A stretch of DNA of 64,000 nt from Candidatus Neomarinimicrobiota bacterium. GTDB lineage: Bacteria > Fidelibacterota > Fidelibacteria > Fidelibacterales > Fidelibacteraceae. Of this stretch, positions 27,440 through 34,662 are shown one piece after another. The stretch spans positions 1 to 64,000 of the forward strand of contig JAGGVO010000042.1 in assembly GCA_021157965.1 (NCBI GenBank), written 5' to 3'. A program made the translations under genes and the position numbers. Positions within the stretch are counted from its first letter, which is position 1. Each line of letters begins with the position of its first letter. A model generated the notes under the pieces. The model had not been told where the DNA came from, searched no databases, and saw only the letters and a program-made list of their open reading frames with translations.

Positions 27440-27470
27440 AAAAGAGACGCTTTTTAACGTCTCTTTTTTT
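27440..27470. terminator. Bidirectional rho-independent terminator
   Basis: The stem AAGAGACG / CGTCTCTT (27442-27449, 27458-27465) has a T-run on the right and an A-run on the left. It lies between the convergent symporter and PorV-like genes and can stop both. Confidence 0.85.
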
Positions 27471-27490: not shown

Positions 27491-28504
27491 TCAGTAAACT
27501 AACGAGAGTGTCAACATTTTCGCCTGATGAAGCCGGCCATAGTCACACCAGGCATAATCTGCTTTGATTTTCAGTGCCGGTGTTACGGGATAATATAGGC
27601 CGCCACCAAAAGATAATCCGCCTTCAGCATCCTCAAGAAAAAGCTGACGGTAACCGGCCCTCAGAAAGACGGTTCCAAACATGGCCAGCTCTGTCCCGAC
27701 ATTGATATACTCCAGATTATCACTGGGGTGCAAGGCATCCACATTCATGCAGAGAACCAGTTTATCTGTGGTAAACACGTCACCCGACAAACCAATCCGG
27801 AAAATGATGGGCAGGGGCCAGCGATCCAGTTCATAGATGGCAGGAATCTGATCATTATTCCCGTACATCTTCTCATCGGGATCAGAATAAAAGCGGATAT
27901 CCCTGCCGTCCAGGAGGAGTTTCCCGCCGAAATTGGTAATACTCATACCCAGGCGGATATTTTTAAACGGAAGAATGAAAAGTGCTCCCATATCCAGTGC
28001 CATAGTGCTGGCACTCATATGCCAGATTTCCTGGCGAATAAATTTAACCTGACCGCCCATGCTGAACCGGTCTGTCAGTCGGTTGGCATAGGTCAGACCG
28101 ATGGTCAGGTCCTGGGCGGAAAAATATTCTCCCGTTCCATCCTGCATGGTCTCGGTCCGAACACTCATCTCTCCGTAATCCAGATGGGCAACATTCACAC
28201 CTACGGCACCATAACGCCCCAAATTCATGGAACCGGCAGTATAAAGGTAACGGGTGGATGCCAGCCAGTCGCTCTGGGTAAACATGGCCTCCTGAATTTG
28301 ATTATGTGCCAGTCCGGCCGCATTGTAATGTAGGGCTTCCAGTCCGCGGACATCGGCAACAGCCGCTTCACCCATACTGAGCGCCCGGGCCGATGTTCCG
28401 ATTTTCAGAAATTGCGCCACGGATGTTCCCACTTTATTGACAGCAAAACCAGGATTCACCATGAACAACAAGATGAGAAATATGCTAATAATTTTACTTT
28501 TCAT
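27491..28504 (-). CDS. PorV/PorQ-family outer-membrane barrel protein
   Basis: 337 residues with a signal peptide (about 1-21). The mature start carries KVGTSVAQFLKIGTSARALS, the characteristic opening of PorV/PorQ-type proteins, followed by many amphipathic strands and a terminal aromatic (LVY). In Bacteroidota PorV binds T9SS cargo sorting domains and passes them to the sortase. The ATG overlaps the stop of the upstream T9SS-type cargo gene as ATGA, so the two are probably translated together and may act as a dedicated pair. Confidence 0.87.
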   Translation of the reverse strand: MKSKIISIFLILLFMVNPGFAVNKVGTSVAQFLKIGTSARALSMGEAAVADVRGLEALHYNAAGLAHNQIQEAMFTQSDWLASTRYLYTAGSMNLGRYGAVGVNVAHLDYGEMSVRTETMQDGTGEYFSAQDLTIGLTYANRLTDRFSMGGQVKFIRQEIWHMSASTMALDMGALFILPFKNIRLGMSITNFGGKLLLDGRDIRFYSDPDEKMYGNNDQIPAIYELDRWPLPIIFRIGLSGDVFTTDKLVLCMNVDALHPSDNLEYINVGTELAMFGTVFLRAGYRQLFLEDAEGGLSFGGGLYYPVTPALKIKADYAWCDYGRLHQAKMLTLSLVY

Positions 28505-31500
28505 TTGATCACCGCAAATTTTCCGATTTTGGTTCCAAGTCCCGATGCAGATGCATCCACATGCCACAGATACATACCATAAGCGAGTTCCATATTATCT
28601 TTATTCAGCAGATTAAAATTTTCACTGCCATCCCACATGGAGCTGTTATGATACAATGTGTTTACCAGTTCACCGGTAATGGTATAGATGCGGATCGTAC
28701 ATACAGGCGGCAGATTGATAAATTTGATAATCCGGTCTCCTCGCCCGCTGGCAAAGGCACTTTTCGGTTCCCAAACGGCCTGGGCGCGGTATGGATTGGG
28801 AACAACCGCGATTTTATCCAGCGGATCTTCAACTGTCTCCGGAGCATATTCTGCCGCTTTCGTGGTAAACCACAGGGTGTCCATGTTTGAAAAGGGCTGA
28901 CTGACACTTACACGAAACACATCACCGTTTGCAGGCGGAATTTTATCCTGTCCGGCCGGCGGTGTGAACTTGATCTCCCAGGTTTTATTCTCAATTTTCA
29001 GCTCCGGTTCACTCAGAATTCCGATTTTATGCTGATCAATATTGAAGGTCTGTCCACCCACAATATAAAAAGGTGCATTGGTAATGCTATCCTTATACGC
29101 ATAAGTCACATCCTGAATGATAAACGGAGCTTTCTGGTTGAACCGGGTCGGCGTATCCAGGTATTTTTCATCCCAGTGGAGTTCATAGATCCGCGGATGG
29201 GCAAATCCCTGGGTGGATTGCCCCAAATCCCAGATTTGCACCTTATGCAGATAGTTGGTCTTTCCCGTCAGCCAACCGGTTTCTTCCTTCTTTAGGACCA
29301 CAGCCTCATCCTGGGTGAATATGCGCATCCCGTCGAATACAGTCACAGCATCTTCCCGGTTGAAATACCTGTTTTCAAAAACGGGCTGATGGTAATAGGT
29401 GACATCCAGCGCCTGATTCCAGTATTCAGGAGCCATATTGTAAACACGGCCTAAAGCCCGGTTAATGTGATATTTATTTTTAGGAATGGGAATTCCATTT
29501 ACCTTGATGGTCACATCGCCAATCTGGGACCGGTTCAACTGATAATAGACACTGTCTTCAATGGTGATGGTTTCGGTAATAGGTGTCATTTCTGTAACAA
29601 ACATGACCGTATCCTGCACATTGTTTGTGGGCGCACCAAATGTAATCCGGTAGGTGATTTGATCCCGAACCTGTTCCGGATGGAGAATTTCAATCTCAAT
29701 ATCACCGGTTCCGGGACCGACATGAGTCATGCCCTCTTCCGTGAGGCCGGGTTCCACAATACCCGGGGAAGACGCCGAGGGTGTGGCAGAACCGGTATTG
29801 ACATCGAAGGTGATCAATCCGGTATAAGGATCCTTATCGATGATTTTTGTGCACTCACTGGGCGGAATGTCAATCGTCCCTGTTGTATCCCCGATATCAT
29901 ACGAACACACTGCATAATAATAAGTAACACCATTGGTTACAGTCGTATCCACAAATTGGTGACGGAGCCCTGTGTCCGTGCCCAGGTTATAGTGGATACC
30001 GTTTATTCCCACATGGGACTCTCCATGAATTCCATCCTTCAGATCAAAGCGGGCTATGGGTTCCCATAAAGTTGCAATCCCGTTATTGTCCGTAATAGTG
30101 TGGACCTCATTAAAACCGGGGTCGGTACTCCGGTAAACGGCATAACCCTGGAAATCGAATCCGTAAACCGGATCCCAGGATTTTTCTGCCAGGTCATCCC
30201 AGTAGAGAGTCACCTTCCCGTCCCCGGGTACAATGCTCACATTGGGTTTTTCCGGGGCCTTGGCAAACTGGTAGCCACTGTCATAAATTCTTTGAACAAC
30301 CTTTGCCGTCTGGAAGAGATCATATTCATTTTCACCCAGAATCAGGGCAATTGAAAAGCGCTGTGTGTCTCCGGATTTCAGAGGAAAATAACCTGACCCG
30401 TAGAGAAAAATATTATCCGTTCTTTGCTGGATATCCGTAAAAGCATTATCCACACCCACCAGGGTATAGGGACGCATACGGCGCCAAATACCGGCATCGT
30501 TCCGAATCATATCGGCTCCATATTGGTAGGCATTGAAGCTGGTCAATCCTATCTGGTCCGCTTCATCCAGATCCGTCCCGTCAAAATTCGGTTCACCGGG
30601 ATAAATCGGGTTGTAAGGGTCCCCTGCTGTGGGAACACCATCTCCCTCACCTCTGTCGGGTCCCGGATAATTTGGATCATCAGGGCCAATCCCGTCAATT
30701 CCAACATCGTGGACATCAGGATCCCAGTCTCCGTCATCATCAATACCATTGAACATGGATTCATCAACCAGCCCATCCCCGTCATTATCGATACCGTCAT
30801 AGGGATTGCCGGGAGACTCAAGAAACGTATATCCAAGCCATCCGGTTTTGCCGCCCCATTCACCTTTTTCATCCCCGTCATATCCGTAAATCATATTTAA
30901 ATCCGTATCAAAATAGGCCATATCATCGGAGAAATCATTGCTTCCACCGATGTGGGGATCACCGAACATCCCGAAGACGACCTTTTCATAGTCATTGGGA
31001 CTTTTATTTGTGATTTCATACACGAAGAAAATCGCATCGTTCGCAACGGGGTTGGACCACTGATAAGCCCGGACTTCCACTTCCAGGCCCATACCTCCGA
31101 TACTGTGATTATCGGGAAATGGTTTAAAGGGGAACTCCAGGTTATACCGGTCATCCATCAGATAATACATGGCCTGATCGGCGGTGGCTGCGTTGGCTTT
31201 ATACGTCCCCGGCCACTGGTTATTCCACAGGGAAGGCCAGGTTTCCGGTTTGTGTGAGAGGGGAATACTTTCCGATGCCGGATTGGCATAATTATCCAGA
31301 GGCTGCCAACCCCAGGGTTCATTGTCCGGAGACAACTCTTCCGCTGCCCCGGGTGCCCCCCCATCCAGCAACCCGTCATTGATAATGTAATAAGTTGTGT
31401 CGTACAGGGGATTGGTCTCGTCTATGACATAATTCCCGTTGCCATCATCGATATACGGCAAAAAATAGCCATTGGTATCCACCGGGACTTCCACCCCGAC

Positions 31501-31809
31501 TAGCGGGCCGAATTCATAGCCGTAGCCATGATAGGAGTAAACAGGCCATTCCAGGGAAGGCTCCCGTCCCGGCGCTCCGATGGAACCAAAATCAAAAACC
31601 AGTGTCCGAATCTGATTCCCCGATAAAACGGCAGACCGGGGGGTCGGCCGATCCATTACCGCACCCTGTTTTTTTAAAGCATCATAAAACCTGTCAACCC
31701 GGGATTGGGGCCACGTTTTCGGGGATCCTTCCTGGAAGGGATTCGCCGCAAAAATCGTGACCGCCGTGAACAGAATAAATATGAATATGCGCGTCATCAA
31801 TTGTTTCAT
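28501..31809 (-). CDS. Large secreted protein with C-terminal sorting (FlgD-like) domain
   Basis: 1102 residues with a signal peptide ending TIFA. The middle contains many Asp/Gly-rich DGIDNDGDG-type calcium-binding-like repeats (about 345-420) and a fibronectin-like region near 525-620. The C-terminal ~90 residues begin VVPNPYRA and end GMYLWHVDA...IGKFAVIK, a FlgD/T9SS-type sorting domain. It sits between the TonB receptor (3 nt upstream) and the PorV-like gene (overlapping), so it is probably the cargo or surface partner of this system. The enzymatic role is unknown. Confidence 0.85.
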   Translation of the reverse strand: MKQLMTRIFIFILFTAVTIFAANPFQEGSPKTWPQSRVDRFYDALKKQGAVMDRPTPRSAVLSGNQIRTLVFDFGSIGAPGREPSLEWPVYSYHGYGYEFGPLVGVEVPVDTNGYFLPYIDDGNGNYVIDETNPLYDTTYYIINDGLLDGGAPGAAEELSPDNEPWGWQPLDNYANPASESIPLSHKPETWPSLWNNQWPGTYKANAATADQAMYYLMDDRYNLEFPFKPFPDNHSIGGMGLEVEVRAYQWSNPVANDAIFFVYEITNKSPNDYEKVVFGMFGDPHIGGSNDFSDDMAYFDTDLNMIYGYDGDEKGEWGGKTGWLGYTFLESPGNPYDGIDNDGDGLVDESMFNGIDDDGDWDPDVHDVGIDGIGPDDPNYPGPDRGEGDGVPTAGDPYNPIYPGEPNFDGTDLDEADQIGLTSFNAYQYGADMIRNDAGIWRRMRPYTLVGVDNAFTDIQQRTDNIFLYGSGYFPLKSGDTQRFSIALILGENEYDLFQTAKVVQRIYDSGYQFAKAPEKPNVSIVPGDGKVTLYWDDLAEKSWDPVYGFDFQGYAVYRSTDPGFNEVHTITDNNGIATLWEPIARFDLKDGIHGESHVGINGIHYNLGTDTGLRHQFVDTTVTNGVTYYYAVCSYDIGDTTGTIDIPPSECTKIIDKDPYTGLITFDVNTGSATPSASSPGIVEPGLTEEGMTHVGPGTGDIEIEILHPEQVRDQITYRITFGAPTNNVQDTVMFVTEMTPITETITIEDSVYYQLNRSQIGDVTIKVNGIPIPKNKYHINRALGRVYNMAPEYWNQALDVTYYHQPVFENRYFNREDAVTVFDGMRIFTQDEAVVLKKEETGWLTGKTNYLHKVQIWDLGQSTQGFAHPRIYELHWDEKYLDTPTRFNQKAPFIIQDVTYAYKDSITNAPFYIVGGQTFNIDQHKIGILSEPELKIENKTWEIKFTPPAGQDKIPPANGDVFRVSVSQPFSNMDTLWFTTKAAEYAPETVEDPLDKIAVVPNPYRAQAVWEPKSAFASGRGDRIIKFINLPPVCTIRIYTITGELVNTLYHNSSMWDGSENFNLLNKDNMELAYGMYLWHVDASASGLGTKIGKFAVIK

Positions 31810-31812
31810 GGA

Positions 31813-34662
31813 TTAGTTTCCTTTATACTGCCAGCTCAGACTTAACAAAATTTGTCTTGGATTTGAATAATATGTAGGCGGTGTAATATATTCCTCCAGA
31901 GGATGAACCGCCGGATGATCTTCATGTTCCTGCACCGCATGACCGGCATAGGTGGGAATCAGGGAATATCCCGCCCGGCCTGTGTCATCATGCACGTAAT
32001 TTTCATTCAGACGGTCAAAAAGATTGTAAATCTTTACTGACAATCGGAAACGGCTTTTCATCACATAAAAATCATAATACGCCTGCATGTCCGTTGTCAG
32101 GTGGAAAGGTTTGTTGTCCGAGTTCTCCTCGGCATTCCGCTGTCCCTGAACCGCCGGTGTATAAGGTTTGCCGGTTGAAAACCGATTCAGGAAAGATATT
32201 CCGGCATTTTGTACTGGACGAATCGTAATATTTGCATTCACTGAATGGCGGACATCCCAGGCCAGAGGCACCACATACTTTTCGGATTCAATGGGCGGTA
32301 TCTGCAGATTATCGTAATAGGCCGCATCCGGTGATGAAGAATTTCCCTCCGCCAGCTGATAGGTATAATCCAGATTCAGTGTCAGGGCGTGTCCGCTTCG
32401 TTGGGTAAATGAAAAAGTAATCCCGCGGACATTTCCGTAATCCTCGGTAACATACTTTGTATACCGGAATGTATTGTCGATAAAATTATATTCTGAAGAA
32501 AGCCAGTTGATAATATCCCTGTAAAAAAGGGTCACATCAATGGCTGTCGTCATGGAAAGCTGTTGCTGGAAGCCCAGTTCATACATGACGGTCTTCTGTG
32601 CACTCAGATCCGGGTTTCCAAACTGGGTTACCCCGGATGTCCGTTTAAGATCCGGATTCCGATAAAGGTAATAAAAAGAAGGCATCTGGAAAAAATGGCC
32701 ATACGAAAAGTGGATGAATCCCTGATCCGTGATGGGAAAACTGAGTCCAAGCCTGGGACTGAACTGTGATTTGGGAGAAGCTTTGACAGTATCGGATTGG
32801 GCCGGATGGGTGGCATCGGAAAAGGTATAATCTTTGGCATCAAAATAGTCATAACGTAATCCAATATTCATGATAAAGTCCTGCAACTCAATTTTATCCT
32901 GAATATAGGCACTAAAATCAAAGGGATGGCGTGTGTAATCGTCATGAGCCGATGAACTGACATCAGGAATATAGGGCTCCCAGAGCGTCCGGCTGCTCAT
33001 TTCTATGGCCATATTGTTCCGGTGATAAGTATGAAAATTGGCTTCCGCACCGGTCCGGACCAGGTGATTCCGGGTGACCTGGCTGGTCAGGTCAAATTTA
33101 ATGGTGGATGTTAACTCATCACTCAGATAATAACCCGTGTTTTGACCACCGTAAATAAAATGATATGAGGGTACATCGCTCCGTTGGGTGTTGACCACAT
33201 AATGGGGAACACCAATGGAGTCGCCAATTGTATACCATACAGGATTTGGAATAAAACTTCCGTGTTCTTTTATAAAATCCCAATCCACAGAGACAACCGT
33301 CAATTGACCGTCGCCGTTTAAATCTTCCGTGAAAGGAGAACCGTCGCTCTTACGACCCAGTTCATCAATTTTACCGTTTCCATTGATATCTTCATCCCAT
33401 ACAAAGGGAATATCCAGCTTATGGACATAATCTTCAGCATGTTTATCGGAATGACTGAATTTCAGGGTATAGTAGGTTCTATTGGACAACGTATGTGTAA
33501 AATGAAGGGCATGAAAAACATATTGATTTTCATGCCGGTAACGGCCATTTGGATTGTATTTCCAGGCATGATCATAATTCTGCCAGTCACTTTTCTCTGC
33601 CGCTACCTGGTACATCAGTTTTGTGTTTTCCGTGGGAGTGATAAACAATTTCATCATGGTGTTCACAGAAAAATTATCATTCAGTGCCACACGCTGTGAA
33701 TCACCTGTCATCATAATATCCCACTGATCTCCCACGAGGGAATAGCTGTCGTAGGTATTGTGTTCCCGCACGCCATACAGCCACCCTTTAGAATTCTTTA
33801 TCGTTCCTGTAATAAAGAAACCACTGTTGCTCAGGAAAGGAATGGGGCCGCTCACATCAAAATCGGTCCGTAAAAATGTGGTGGGGTCATATTCGTCCAC
33901 ATCGGTAAAGATATGTGTATTTTGGGAAAACATATCTCCGGCCTGCAATTTCACATTTCCGGATAAAGCCCGGCTGGCGTCTTTTGTAGTAATATTAACA
34001 ATACCACTCATGGCCTTACCGTATTCTGCATTGAAAGTTCCTGAAATCAGAGTCAGCTCCGAAATAATGTTCGTGGAAATAGACTTTCCGAGATTCGCAT
34101 TGACTGGAATGCCGTCGATCATATAAACCACTTCCGAGGAGCGACCACCCCGAATATGAAGGGCACCATCCGAACCTTGTGTTACCCCGGCCTGTGTAGA
34201 GAGTATGGCTGAAGAGCTTTCAACCGGCATCACTTCAAGATCTTCCTCTGTCACAGTGGATTTTGAAGATGTCAGGTCTGAGCGAACCAGGGGCTGTTTG
34301 GCAATCACGATGACCTCTTCACCCTGAAGAACCGTCGGTTCGAGCCGGATGTCCAACGTCCGGGTCATGTCTGAATTGACCTGAATATTTTGAATCCTTA
34401 CGGTTTTATACCCAATGGATGTAGCCATAATTTCATAGGTCCCCGGAGGAACATTTAATATCGTGTAATAGCCCTCATCATCCGATGCAGCCCCCAGGGA
34501 TTCATTGACAACCATAATATTGACACCCATGAGGGGTTCACCACTTCCGCTGTGGGTCACACGGCCGGCAATTTTTCCGCCTGTGGCGCCCTGCAGCAAT
34601 CCGGTTATATAAAAGAGTAATACGCAGAATGTACTAATCCGCCTTTTCCATTCAGCTAACAT
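31813..34662 (-). CDS. TonB-dependent receptor with carboxypeptidase-like N-terminal domain
   Basis: 949 residues. A signal peptide precedes a CarboxypepD_reg-like domain (about 28-110, GRVTHSGSGEPLMGVNI). A plug domain follows (about 125-235, with LHIRGGRSSEVVYMIDGIPV), then a 22-strand-type barrel to the C-terminus. It imports an unknown ligand across the outer membrane using TonB energy. The ATG at 34662 has AGGGAAAG just upstream; the frame opens at a TTG six codons earlier. It forms one unit with the sorting-domain and PorV-like genes. No SusD-type gene is adjacent. Confidence 0.9.
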   Translation of the reverse strand: MLAEWKRRISTFCVLLFYITGLLQGATGGKIAGRVTHSGSGEPLMGVNIMVVNESLGAASDDEGYYTILNVPPGTYEIMATSIGYKTVRIQNIQVNSDMTRTLDIRLEPTVLQGEEVIVIAKQPLVRSDLTSSKSTVTEEDLEVMPVESSSAILSTQAGVTQGSDGALHIRGGRSSEVVYMIDGIPVNANLGKSISTNIISELTLISGTFNAEYGKAMSGIVNITTKDASRALSGNVKLQAGDMFSQNTHIFTDVDEYDPTTFLRTDFDVSGPIPFLSNSGFFITGTIKNSKGWLYGVREHNTYDSYSLVGDQWDIMMTGDSQRVALNDNFSVNTMMKLFITPTENTKLMYQVAAEKSDWQNYDHAWKYNPNGRYRHENQYVFHALHFTHTLSNRTYYTLKFSHSDKHAEDYVHKLDIPFVWDEDINGNGKIDELGRKSDGSPFTEDLNGDGQLTVVSVDWDFIKEHGSFIPNPVWYTIGDSIGVPHYVVNTQRSDVPSYHFIYGGQNTGYYLSDELTSTIKFDLTSQVTRNHLVRTGAEANFHTYHRNNMAIEMSSRTLWEPYIPDVSSSAHDDYTRHPFDFSAYIQDKIELQDFIMNIGLRYDYFDAKDYTFSDATHPAQSDTVKASPKSQFSPRLGLSFPITDQGFIHFSYGHFFQMPSFYYLYRNPDLKRTSGVTQFGNPDLSAQKTVMYELGFQQQLSMTTAIDVTLFYRDIINWLSSEYNFIDNTFRYTKYVTEDYGNVRGITFSFTQRSGHALTLNLDYTYQLAEGNSSSPDAAYYDNLQIPPIESEKYVVPLAWDVRHSVNANITIRPVQNAGISFLNRFSTGKPYTPAVQGQRNAEENSDNKPFHLTTDMQAYYDFYVMKSRFRLSVKIYNLFDRLNENYVHDDTGRAGYSLIPTYAGHAVQEHEDHPAVHPLEEYITPPTYYSNPRQILLSLSWQYKGN

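Follow-up and report, generated by a model that had tools for sequence, protein, structure and literature searches.

What might a TonB-dependent receptor, a large exported protein and a PorV-like barrel, encoded by tightly coupled genes, do together at the cell surface? The question is raised by a locus in the window, which is the whole stretch of 64,000 nucleotides that we analysed (positions 1-64,000, forward strand, of contig JAGGVO010000042.1 in assembly GCA_021157965.1 of Candidatus Neomarinimicrobiota bacterium, Fidelibacterota). The initial annotation placed a 1102-residue exported protein with a T9SS-type tail, hereafter the cargo, between a TonB receptor and a PorV-like barrel and suggested a dedicated uptake or surface-assembly unit with no SusD. 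The claimed arrangement is borne out by gene order and family scores (Table 1), and the re-read coordinates give exactly the claimed 3-bp gap between receptor and cargo genes and 4-bp overlap between cargo and barrel genes, all three being on the minus strand and without internal stops.

Table 1. Features of the receptor-cargo-barrel locus, in window coordinates.
Feature	Coordinates	Strand	Basis
FG-GAP repeat protein gene, exported, 595 aa	34740..36527	-	Pfam/NCBIfam scores, spacing
TonB-dependent receptor gene, 949 aa, ATG/TAA	31813..34662	-	Pfam PF00593, PF07715, PF13715/PF13620 above cut-offs
Cargo gene, 1102 aa, ATG/TGA, exported surface-protein candidate	28501..31809	-	Reading frame, AlphaFold2 model
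Cargo N-terminal part, beta-supersandwich fold	30265..31677	-	VIA-align structural comparison
Unit-type C-terminal domain of cargo, residues 1002-1102, VVPNPY...IGKFAVIK	28501..28806	-	Alignment, 83 members
PorV/PorQ-family outer-membrane barrel gene, 337 aa, ATG/TGA	27491..28504	-	NF033709, structure model
Intrinsic-terminator-like hairpin and T run, just 3' of barrel gene	27441..27463	-	Read by eye

The FG-GAP gene ends 77 bp upstream of the receptor gene, and its product combines an FG-GAP_3 match (71.6 bits) with a type A T9SS tail (TIGR04183, 33.3 bits, cut-off 23). ORFs of 587-621 aa occupy the same upstream position at six related loci (L047, L050, L052, L053, L055 and L084), and the one of these that was scanned, that of L053, is also an FG-GAP protein with a type A tail; this gene is probably the first of the receptor-cargo-barrel operon in this orthologous group.

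The receptor has TonB plug and barrel domains, preceded by an N-terminal carboxypeptidase-regulatory-like extension, and stays below the cut-off of the SusC/RagA model TIGR04056 (77.4 bits, cut-off 368). When a subfamily profile was applied, the full-length unit receptor outside the seed reached 690 bits and full-length non-unit receptors at most 197 bits. The absence of SusD was confirmed, as SusD/RagB (PF07980) has no match in the host genome and the control, Bacteroides ihuae, was positive. The PorV-like character of the barrel also holds: it belongs to the PorV/PorQ family according to NF033709 (178 bits, cut-off 90), is just above the cut-off of the PorV model PF19572 (28.6 bits, cut-off 27) and falls below those of PorV and PorQ proper (NF033710, 59.6 bits, cut-off 250; NF033711, 95.9 bits, cut-off 220). 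Its structural model (pLDDT 90.2) is closest to the PorV chains 8gl6_F (Z 34.5) and 6h3i_F (Z 33.6), which are PorV with bound CTD substrate, and FadL chains come next (Z 31.1 and below).

Nothing in Pfam matches the cargo at E <= 0.1, and NCBIfam offers no more than a sub-threshold acidic repeat, so that the T9SS-type tail of the cargo, as initially annotated, finds no match in the curated libraries; it is nevertheless supported by an alignment of profiles (hhalign 97.9%, E 4.6e-13, 78 columns) between the unit tails and canonical type A tails from this lineage. The window cargo matches neither type A model, TIGR04183 or PF18962. Among 83 unit tails, 26 match TIGR04183 at E <= 0.01, against 19/19 ordinary tails, none is listed for PF18962, and the cargo of unit C23 lies marginally above the TIGR04183 cut-off (24.1). 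The type B model PF13585 gives the window tail 18.6 bits (cut-off 27) and matches 20/83 unit tails at E <= 0.01, TIGR04131 matching one. Because of these partial TIGR04183 and PF13585 matches the assignment is not clean, and we rejected both a type A and a type B label. The motif PNPY occurs in 87 cargo ORFs and PNPF in 3, the C-terminus lying a median of 98 residues beyond PNP; within the host genome, unit tails have PNPY and 95-106 residues, versus PNPF and 77-84 residues in 14 free tails, and a unit-tail profile run on this genome gave 58-165 bits for unit tails and at most 44 for the other tails listed. Judged by sequence, the unit tail (PNPY...GKFAVIK) is thus distinct in class from the type A tails that occur free in this genome, and longer. 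Models of PorZ and PorU match 68/83 and 54/83 unit tails, and also 11/19 and 17/19 ordinary type A tails used as control, and we therefore do not regard these matches as specific. The median of 98 residues is near the 96-108 given for PorZ/PorU in the available part of PMC11285876, which is no more than suggestive of a retained CTD.

There is no lipobox cysteine within the first 40 residues of the window cargo, and a lipobox-like motif occurs in 1/84 cargos. The AlphaFold2 model of the cargo (mean pLDDT 84.9, pTM 0.80) shows a predicted beta-supersandwich over residues 45-515 approximately, with alignments extending to about 670; the 50 VIA-align matches listed for this part (Z 15.4-20.3) are mostly carbohydrate-active enzymes, including GH94 phosphorylases, GH116 and GH15-type glucoamylase. 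Sharing this fold does not prove that the cargo binds sugar, and a glycan ligand is the weakest of the inferences drawn here. PorZ (5m11), ranked third by Foldseek, was rejected as a likeness of the whole cargo (TM 0.10, rmsd 31.7). The middle parts of some cargos have a weak sub-threshold match to a phage tail-tube model and to SprA.

The host genome does not lack T9SS core genes: we found the SprA/Sov translocon (2041-aa frame, 134 bits, E 2.7e-39), and along with it three C25 (PorU-type) peptidases, type A tails and a separate general PorV (C12; 274 bits with NF033709 and 210 with the PorV equivalog model, below its cut-off of 250). PorM/GldM (TIGR03517) has no match in this genome and none in 14 control genomes either. 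As SprA is present, a reading of the locus as a unit without T9SS was rejected.

The arrangement recurs within the same genome, which contains ten units with 11 cargo genes; nine are ordered TonB receptor, cargo, barrel and six are strictly adjacent, and the cargo of C61 precedes a receptor-barrel pair by four genes. SurA/PPIC-type chaperone genes are found inside or beside several units. For nine units, distance matrices computed separately from receptor, cargo body, tail and barrel are congruent (r 0.65-0.86; 0/5000 permutations as high for each pair); such matched distances would also be expected from block duplication of whole units. Between receptor and cargo-body distances a partial correlation of 0.40 persists once tail and barrel are allowed for, the receptor-barrel value being 0.67.

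Using the cargo as query, relatives were then surveyed for the triplet at 78 loci of other genomes (from the best 80 of 250). The exact triplet on the same strand surrounds 61/72 cargo genes that have both neighbours on the contig, loci without a cargo being outside this sample; the direct upstream neighbour is a TonB receptor in 77/82 cases and the direct downstream neighbour a PorV-family barrel in 67/79, the barrel preceding the cargo at L119 and L123. With ten units in one genome and this recurrence elsewhere, the three genes do not behave as independent occurrences. Gene order is fixed across several FCB phyla, and the receptor-cargo-barrel unit is a large, old family.

At the scale of the phylum, 60 genomes gave 943 PorV-family, 608 unit-type C-terminal-domain and 15 SusD matches, the last as one or two copies in 12/60 genomes, and 59/60 encode SprA. 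Copy numbers of PorV-family barrels and unit-type tails are correlated (r 0.82; 0.59 after genome size), but as barrels outnumber tails, not every PorV-family barrel has a unit-type partner. In the stretches examined of four streamlined genomes (G005, G025, G033 and G058), the PorV-family gene adjoins neither a TonB receptor nor a cargo, and each genome has a single tail match. In a tree of 56 barrels, where long branches meet, the unit label needs two changes, a result compatible with a single origin of all unit barrels and with more than one. The genes flanking the units were scanned for 94/195 near and 100/137 far ORFs: type A tails occur in 25/94 near versus 10/100 far, FG-GAP in 9/94 near while not being among the 25 of 136 families listed for the far set, and glycoside hydrolases in both sets; the carbohydrate signal of the flanks is modest.

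The three genes represent one copy of a unit that is both repeated and conserved, and we consider, with a probability of about 0.55, that this unit serves SusD-free, T9SS-dependent uptake with a dedicated barrel; the recurrence, the conserved triplet and the presence of SprA support the unit initially proposed, be it for uptake or for surface assembly. The cargo would be exported by Sec and would then use its C-terminal domain to pass through SprA. As the cargo's dedicated partner, the adjacent PorV-family barrel would recognise it and receive it from SprA, and may hold it at the surface by keeping the uncleaved tail docked, by analogy with PorU-PorV and PorZ-PorQ in Porphyromonas. There the cargo, with its sugar-related N-terminal beta-supersandwich, might capture ligand for the adjacent TonB receptor, perhaps in complex with it, and so fill the role of the SusD lipoprotein in SusCD systems. 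More tentatively, and at slightly less than even odds, this may be a T9SS-built counterpart of SusCD, that is, a new outer-membrane nutrient-uptake complex with a T9SS-delivered ligand-binding partner, its own PorV-family barrel and a new non-cleaved CTD class, in which case the PorV family would have given rise to dozens of shuttle-anchors, each specific to a cargo, in Fidelibacterota, Calditrichota, KSB1, Ignavibacteria-type and Kryptonia lineages.

The barrel could instead be a dedicated shuttle and anchor with a TonB receptor that is merely co-regulated, the cargo being an adhesin, an S-layer-like protein or an enzyme scaffold outside any receptor complex. The cargo-barrel pair taken alone does resemble type B cargo/SprF pairs, and most known cases of these are adhesins according to the available part of PMC12618676; the reversed order at L119 and L123, the displaced cargo of C61 and the enrichment of the flanks in ordinary type A cargo point the same way. 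We find this account unlikely in view of the receptor found upstream in 77/82 cases, and of the distance correlations of the receptor with cargo body (partial) and barrel. It is improbable, and was already disfavoured, that the clustering is a genomic habit in which abundant outer-membrane genes share regulation without dedicated partnership: all three families are indeed numerous in the host genome (16 PorV-family matches, 19 TonB plugs and 55 type A tail matches), but the order is fixed over several FCB phyla, the tail class is confined to unit cargos, receptor subfamily scores are far apart and the parts of units have matched distances within one genome. A FadL-type channel for a hydrophobic or small substrate beside the receptor, with the cargo exported via the general PorV, would suit the transport roles of FadL-family barrels (PMC12611786, available part) and the FadL chains that follow closely in the structural list; with PorV chains ranking first, a PorV/PorQ family match and the barrel directly after a T9SS-type-tail gene in 67/79 cases, we hold it to be highly improbable.

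Our literature search found no description of a unit of TonB receptor, cargo and PorV barrel, and the available parts of PMC12578637 and PMC5317091 describe none. If the uptake reading is true, the own-shuttle principle would exist in the PorV branch itself, hundreds of times and outside Bacteroidota, to which tail-bearing proteins are said to be restricted (PMC10202324, available part); T9SS would be tied directly to TonB-dependent uptake, and there would be an explanation of the way in which phyla that are poor in SusD and largely uncultured may capture large nutrients. Protection of the tail from cleavage by cognate PorV-like barrels, a hypothesis of review authors (among PMC5562754, PMC10202324 and PMC11285876, as far as their available parts go), would become testable, the units being a large natural test of it.

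According to the accessible sections of PMC12618676 and PMC9143113, a type B cargo gene is followed by a cognate PorP/SprF gene for its own shuttle and anchor, a 14-stranded barrel of the FadL superfamily, as in SprB-SprF of Flavobacterium johnsoniae, which has 12 type B substrates, and PG1035-PorP of P. gingivalis; these sections do not mention TonB. The units likewise have a cargo gene directly followed by a barrel gene, in many pairs per genome, but their barrel is of the PorV/PorQ and not the PorP/SprF family, their tail is not clearly type B and a TonB receptor leads. A single PorV is reported to serve all type A tails, unlike type B with its own PorP/SprF (PMC12618676); the units share barrel fold and translocon with this general route and have a tail profile alignable with type A, whereas one PorV-family barrel stands beside each unit cargo and the general PorV is separate. 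Non-cleaved CTDs of PorU and PorZ are held by PorV/PorQ barrels in what is available of PMC10202324, PMC5562754 and PMC11285876; Porphyromonas has one pair of each per cell, devoted to cargo processing, in contrast to about ten pairs with non-protease cargos plus a TonB receptor in the units. With SusCD, finally, the units have in common a coupled surface-partner gene and a TonB receptor whose N-terminus bears a regulatory-like extension, although the receptor is far below the SusC/RagA cut-off and the partner, neither a SusD nor a lipoprotein, carries a T9SS-type tail and has a barrel of its own.

The window carries a unit in which a TonB receptor gene is followed by genes for an exported protein with a T9SS-type tail (the cargo) and for a PorV-family barrel, and the gene coordinates bear out the tight junctions, one of them overlapping, that the initial annotation had described (table). 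The barrel scores 178 bits against the PorV/PorQ family model NF033709 (cut-off 90) and thus belongs to this family, with scores below both the PorV and the PorQ equivalog cut-offs, and no Pfam family matched the cargo at E <= 0.1. Outside any unit, window:48666-49997 encodes a protein of 443 aa that exceeds the DUF5723 cut-off and matches the PorV family weakly (39 bits).

Features of the window unit and of SurA_N-like genes in related units
Feature	Position	Strand	Remarks
TonB receptor, 949 aa	34662..31813	minus	plug and barrel domains over Pfam cut-offs
Cargo, exported, 1102 aa	31809..28501	minus	3 bp after receptor gene
Barrel, 337 aa	28504..27491	minus	4-bp overlap with cargo gene
FG-GAP protein, 595 aa	77 bp upstream of receptor gene		canonical type A tail
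Hairpin and T run	3' of barrel gene		read directly in window sequence
SurA_N-like lipoprotein-type chaperone gene	L032:6596-7990; L092:4614-6005		cargo-barrel gap; one orthologous unit group

Using PorV-family and cargo searches, then the stretches around the matches, we located ten units with 11 cargo genes in the window's genome (2.3 Mb, 61 contigs, 96% complete; the window is on contig C42). Triplets are strictly adjacent on C42, C23, C57a, C47, C36 and C4; cargo and barrel are separated by a SurA-like gene on C41 and by a 258-aa gene on C57b, C16 has two cargos in tandem and a receptor truncated by the contig end, and C61 departs from the usual order, running cargo, tail protein, a further gene, receptor and barrel. 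The two different cargos ahead of one barrel on C16 (L033) recur at L121, an arrangement common to both genomes. The genome has 19 TonB plugs, nine of them inside units, plus the truncated one of C16. At the edge of C6 (L148, G000:C6:1-6000), a 626-aa fragment of a unit-type TonB receptor (422 bits) is perhaps an eleventh unit.

Two other genes directly followed by a barrel gene were seen in this genome. At L037:15376-17903 (C41), a 529-aa protein with a 98-residue PNPF tail directly precedes a PorV/PorQ-family barrel (73 bits; 66 with the PorQ model), 9 kb from the start of the translocon gene sprA, possibly a PorZ-PorQ pair. At L043:2074-7682 (C20), a 1534-aa C25 (PorU-type) peptidase directly precedes a barrel that matches the PorV family weakly (28 bits), and the two may be a second pair of sortase and barrel.

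A cargo-profile search of genome contigs gave 250 relatives, the best 80 representing 78 distinct loci, in which receptor, barrel and cargo were labelled with profiles seeded from the window's genome; as the cargo served as query, the survey covers loci that have a cargo gene. The loci are labelled Neomarinimicrobiota, Calditrichota, KSB1, Ignavibacteriae, Kryptonia genera, WOR-3, Delongbacteria, Bacteroidetes and others, and the nearest named relative (94% cargo identity) is labelled Candidatus Neomarinimicrobiota, now Fidelibacterota. Among their 89 cargo genes, the upstream gene, where on the contig, is a TonB receptor in 77 of 82 and the downstream gene is of the PorV family in 67 of 79. 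The exact one-strand triplet, for which the initial annotation proposed a survey of relatives, was found around 61 of the 72 cargo genes with both neighbours on the contig. What breaks the triplet in the 11 other cases is mostly an additional ORF that parts cargo from barrel (about 463 aa in L087, L092 and L109), a further cargo (L121), division of the cargo into two ORFs (L115) or a barrel gene ahead of the cargo (L119, L123).

In 60 evenly drawn genomes of the phylum, each at least 85% complete, we counted at least 943 PorV-family matches (median 16, range 1-29) and at least 608 unit-type tails at E <= 1e-8 (median 10, range 1-25), and the two counts correlate per genome (r 0.82; 0.59 after genome size). 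The translocon protein SprA is present in 59, the exception being G034 (88% complete), and SusD in 12, with 15 matches in total; 43 genomes combine at least two unit-type tails with no SusD. Four streamlined genomes (G005, G025, G033, G058; L153-L156; 0.8-1.0 Mb) keep SprA, one unit-type tail match and one or two PorV-family matches each; in the stretches read, their barrel gene adjoins neither receptor nor cargo.

The tails form a class related to type A by profile comparison, with an additional ~15 residues (GRG loop) after PNPY. PNP and two glycines are among the invariant columns of 83 aligned tails; cargo ORFs have PNPY in 87 cases and PNPF in 3, and PNP lies 95-106 residues from the C-terminus (5th-95th percentile, median 98), compared with 77-84 for 14 free PNPF tails from stretches of the window's genome and 84, 87 and 95 for C25 peptidases. 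A profile built from most of the scored unit tails gives unit cargos of this genome 58-165 bits, C4 (58 bits) being outside the profile, and other tails among those listed at most 44. Library matches are ambiguous: unit tails match TIGR04183 in 26/83, the PorU model in 54/83, the PorZ model in 68/83 and the type B models TIGR04131 and PF13585 in 1/83 and 20/83, whereas ordinary tails show the reverse order (TIGR04183 19/19, PorU 17/19, PorZ 11/19), so that PorU/PorZ likeness is not exclusive to unit tails.

SurA/PPIC-type genes lie inside or beside units at L032, L092 and L033, the SurA_N-like gene being over the Pfam cut-off in L092 and under it in L032. The 94 ORFs near units include four SurA_N and three rotamase matches, with none among the 25 families listed for 100 far ORFs, and type A tails are commoner near (25/94) than far (10/100). 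An alpha-amylase gene lies near the L120 unit; LacI regulators, sodium-solute symporters and glycoside hydrolases each occur near single loci, the last also in the far set.

In a set of 62 units, the receptor (T), cargo body (M), tail (C) and barrel (V) have distances that correlate with one another at 0.75-0.89, against 0.36 for the best of 500 shuffles, with partial correlations of 0.67 (TV), 0.43 (MC), 0.40 (TM), 0.32 (CV), 0.07 (TC) and -0.06 (MV). Because species history confounds these values, the comparison was redone inside the window's genome, where nine units gave r 0.65-0.86 and 0 of 5000 permutations was as high for every pair; whole-unit duplication would produce the same within-genome correlations. 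In the barrel tree, the genome's unit barrels fall beside those of the matching unit elsewhere: C41 with L087, L092 and L107, C16 with L121, C47 with the L047 and L054 copies, and C42 with L046. Both the SurA-like insertion and the double cargo follow these groups across genomes, so the units had diversified before these genomes separated and have remained intact since.

The model of the barrel (pLDDT 90.2) most resembles PorV in two T9SS translocon structures, 8gl6, which has the RemA CTD bound (Z 34.5), and 6h3i (Z 33.6), with rmsd 3.4 over 278-279 residues; FadL comes next (Z 31.1). In the cargo model (pLDDT 84.9, pTM 0.80), the beta-supersandwich regions that match residues ~45 to 515-670 belong to GH94 phosphorylases, GH116, glucoamylases and related proteins (among matches listed, Z 15.4-20.3 over 213-287 residues). 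The GH94, GH116 and glucoamylase families have a catalytic alpha/alpha barrel, which the cargo probably lacks, judging from the strand content of the model and these family traits. The predicted fold hints at glycans as ligand. One aspartate-rich stretch, DNDGDG (residue 341), falls in a low-confidence loop.

By analogy with known T9SS biology, the tail would carry the cargo through SprA and the PorV-family barrel would then collect it. Having one barrel for each cargo, at equal gene dose, is easier to square with a lasting partner than with a recycled shuttle. As a receptor heads the unit, uptake is its likeliest purpose; there is a real chance that the units are a separate uptake system. The barrel family and its automatic labels are already known, and the unit and its tail class appear undescribed, as no TonB/tail-protein/PorV-family unit was found in searches of open-access full text. 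According to published accounts, uncleaved tails keep PorU on PorV and PorZ on PorQ (PMC10202324, PMC5562754), and type B cargos are served by PorP/SprF barrels of their own (PMC12618676, PMC9143113), pairs for which the stoichiometry argument has already been made (PMC12618676); the units would likewise provide a cargo with its own shuttle barrel.
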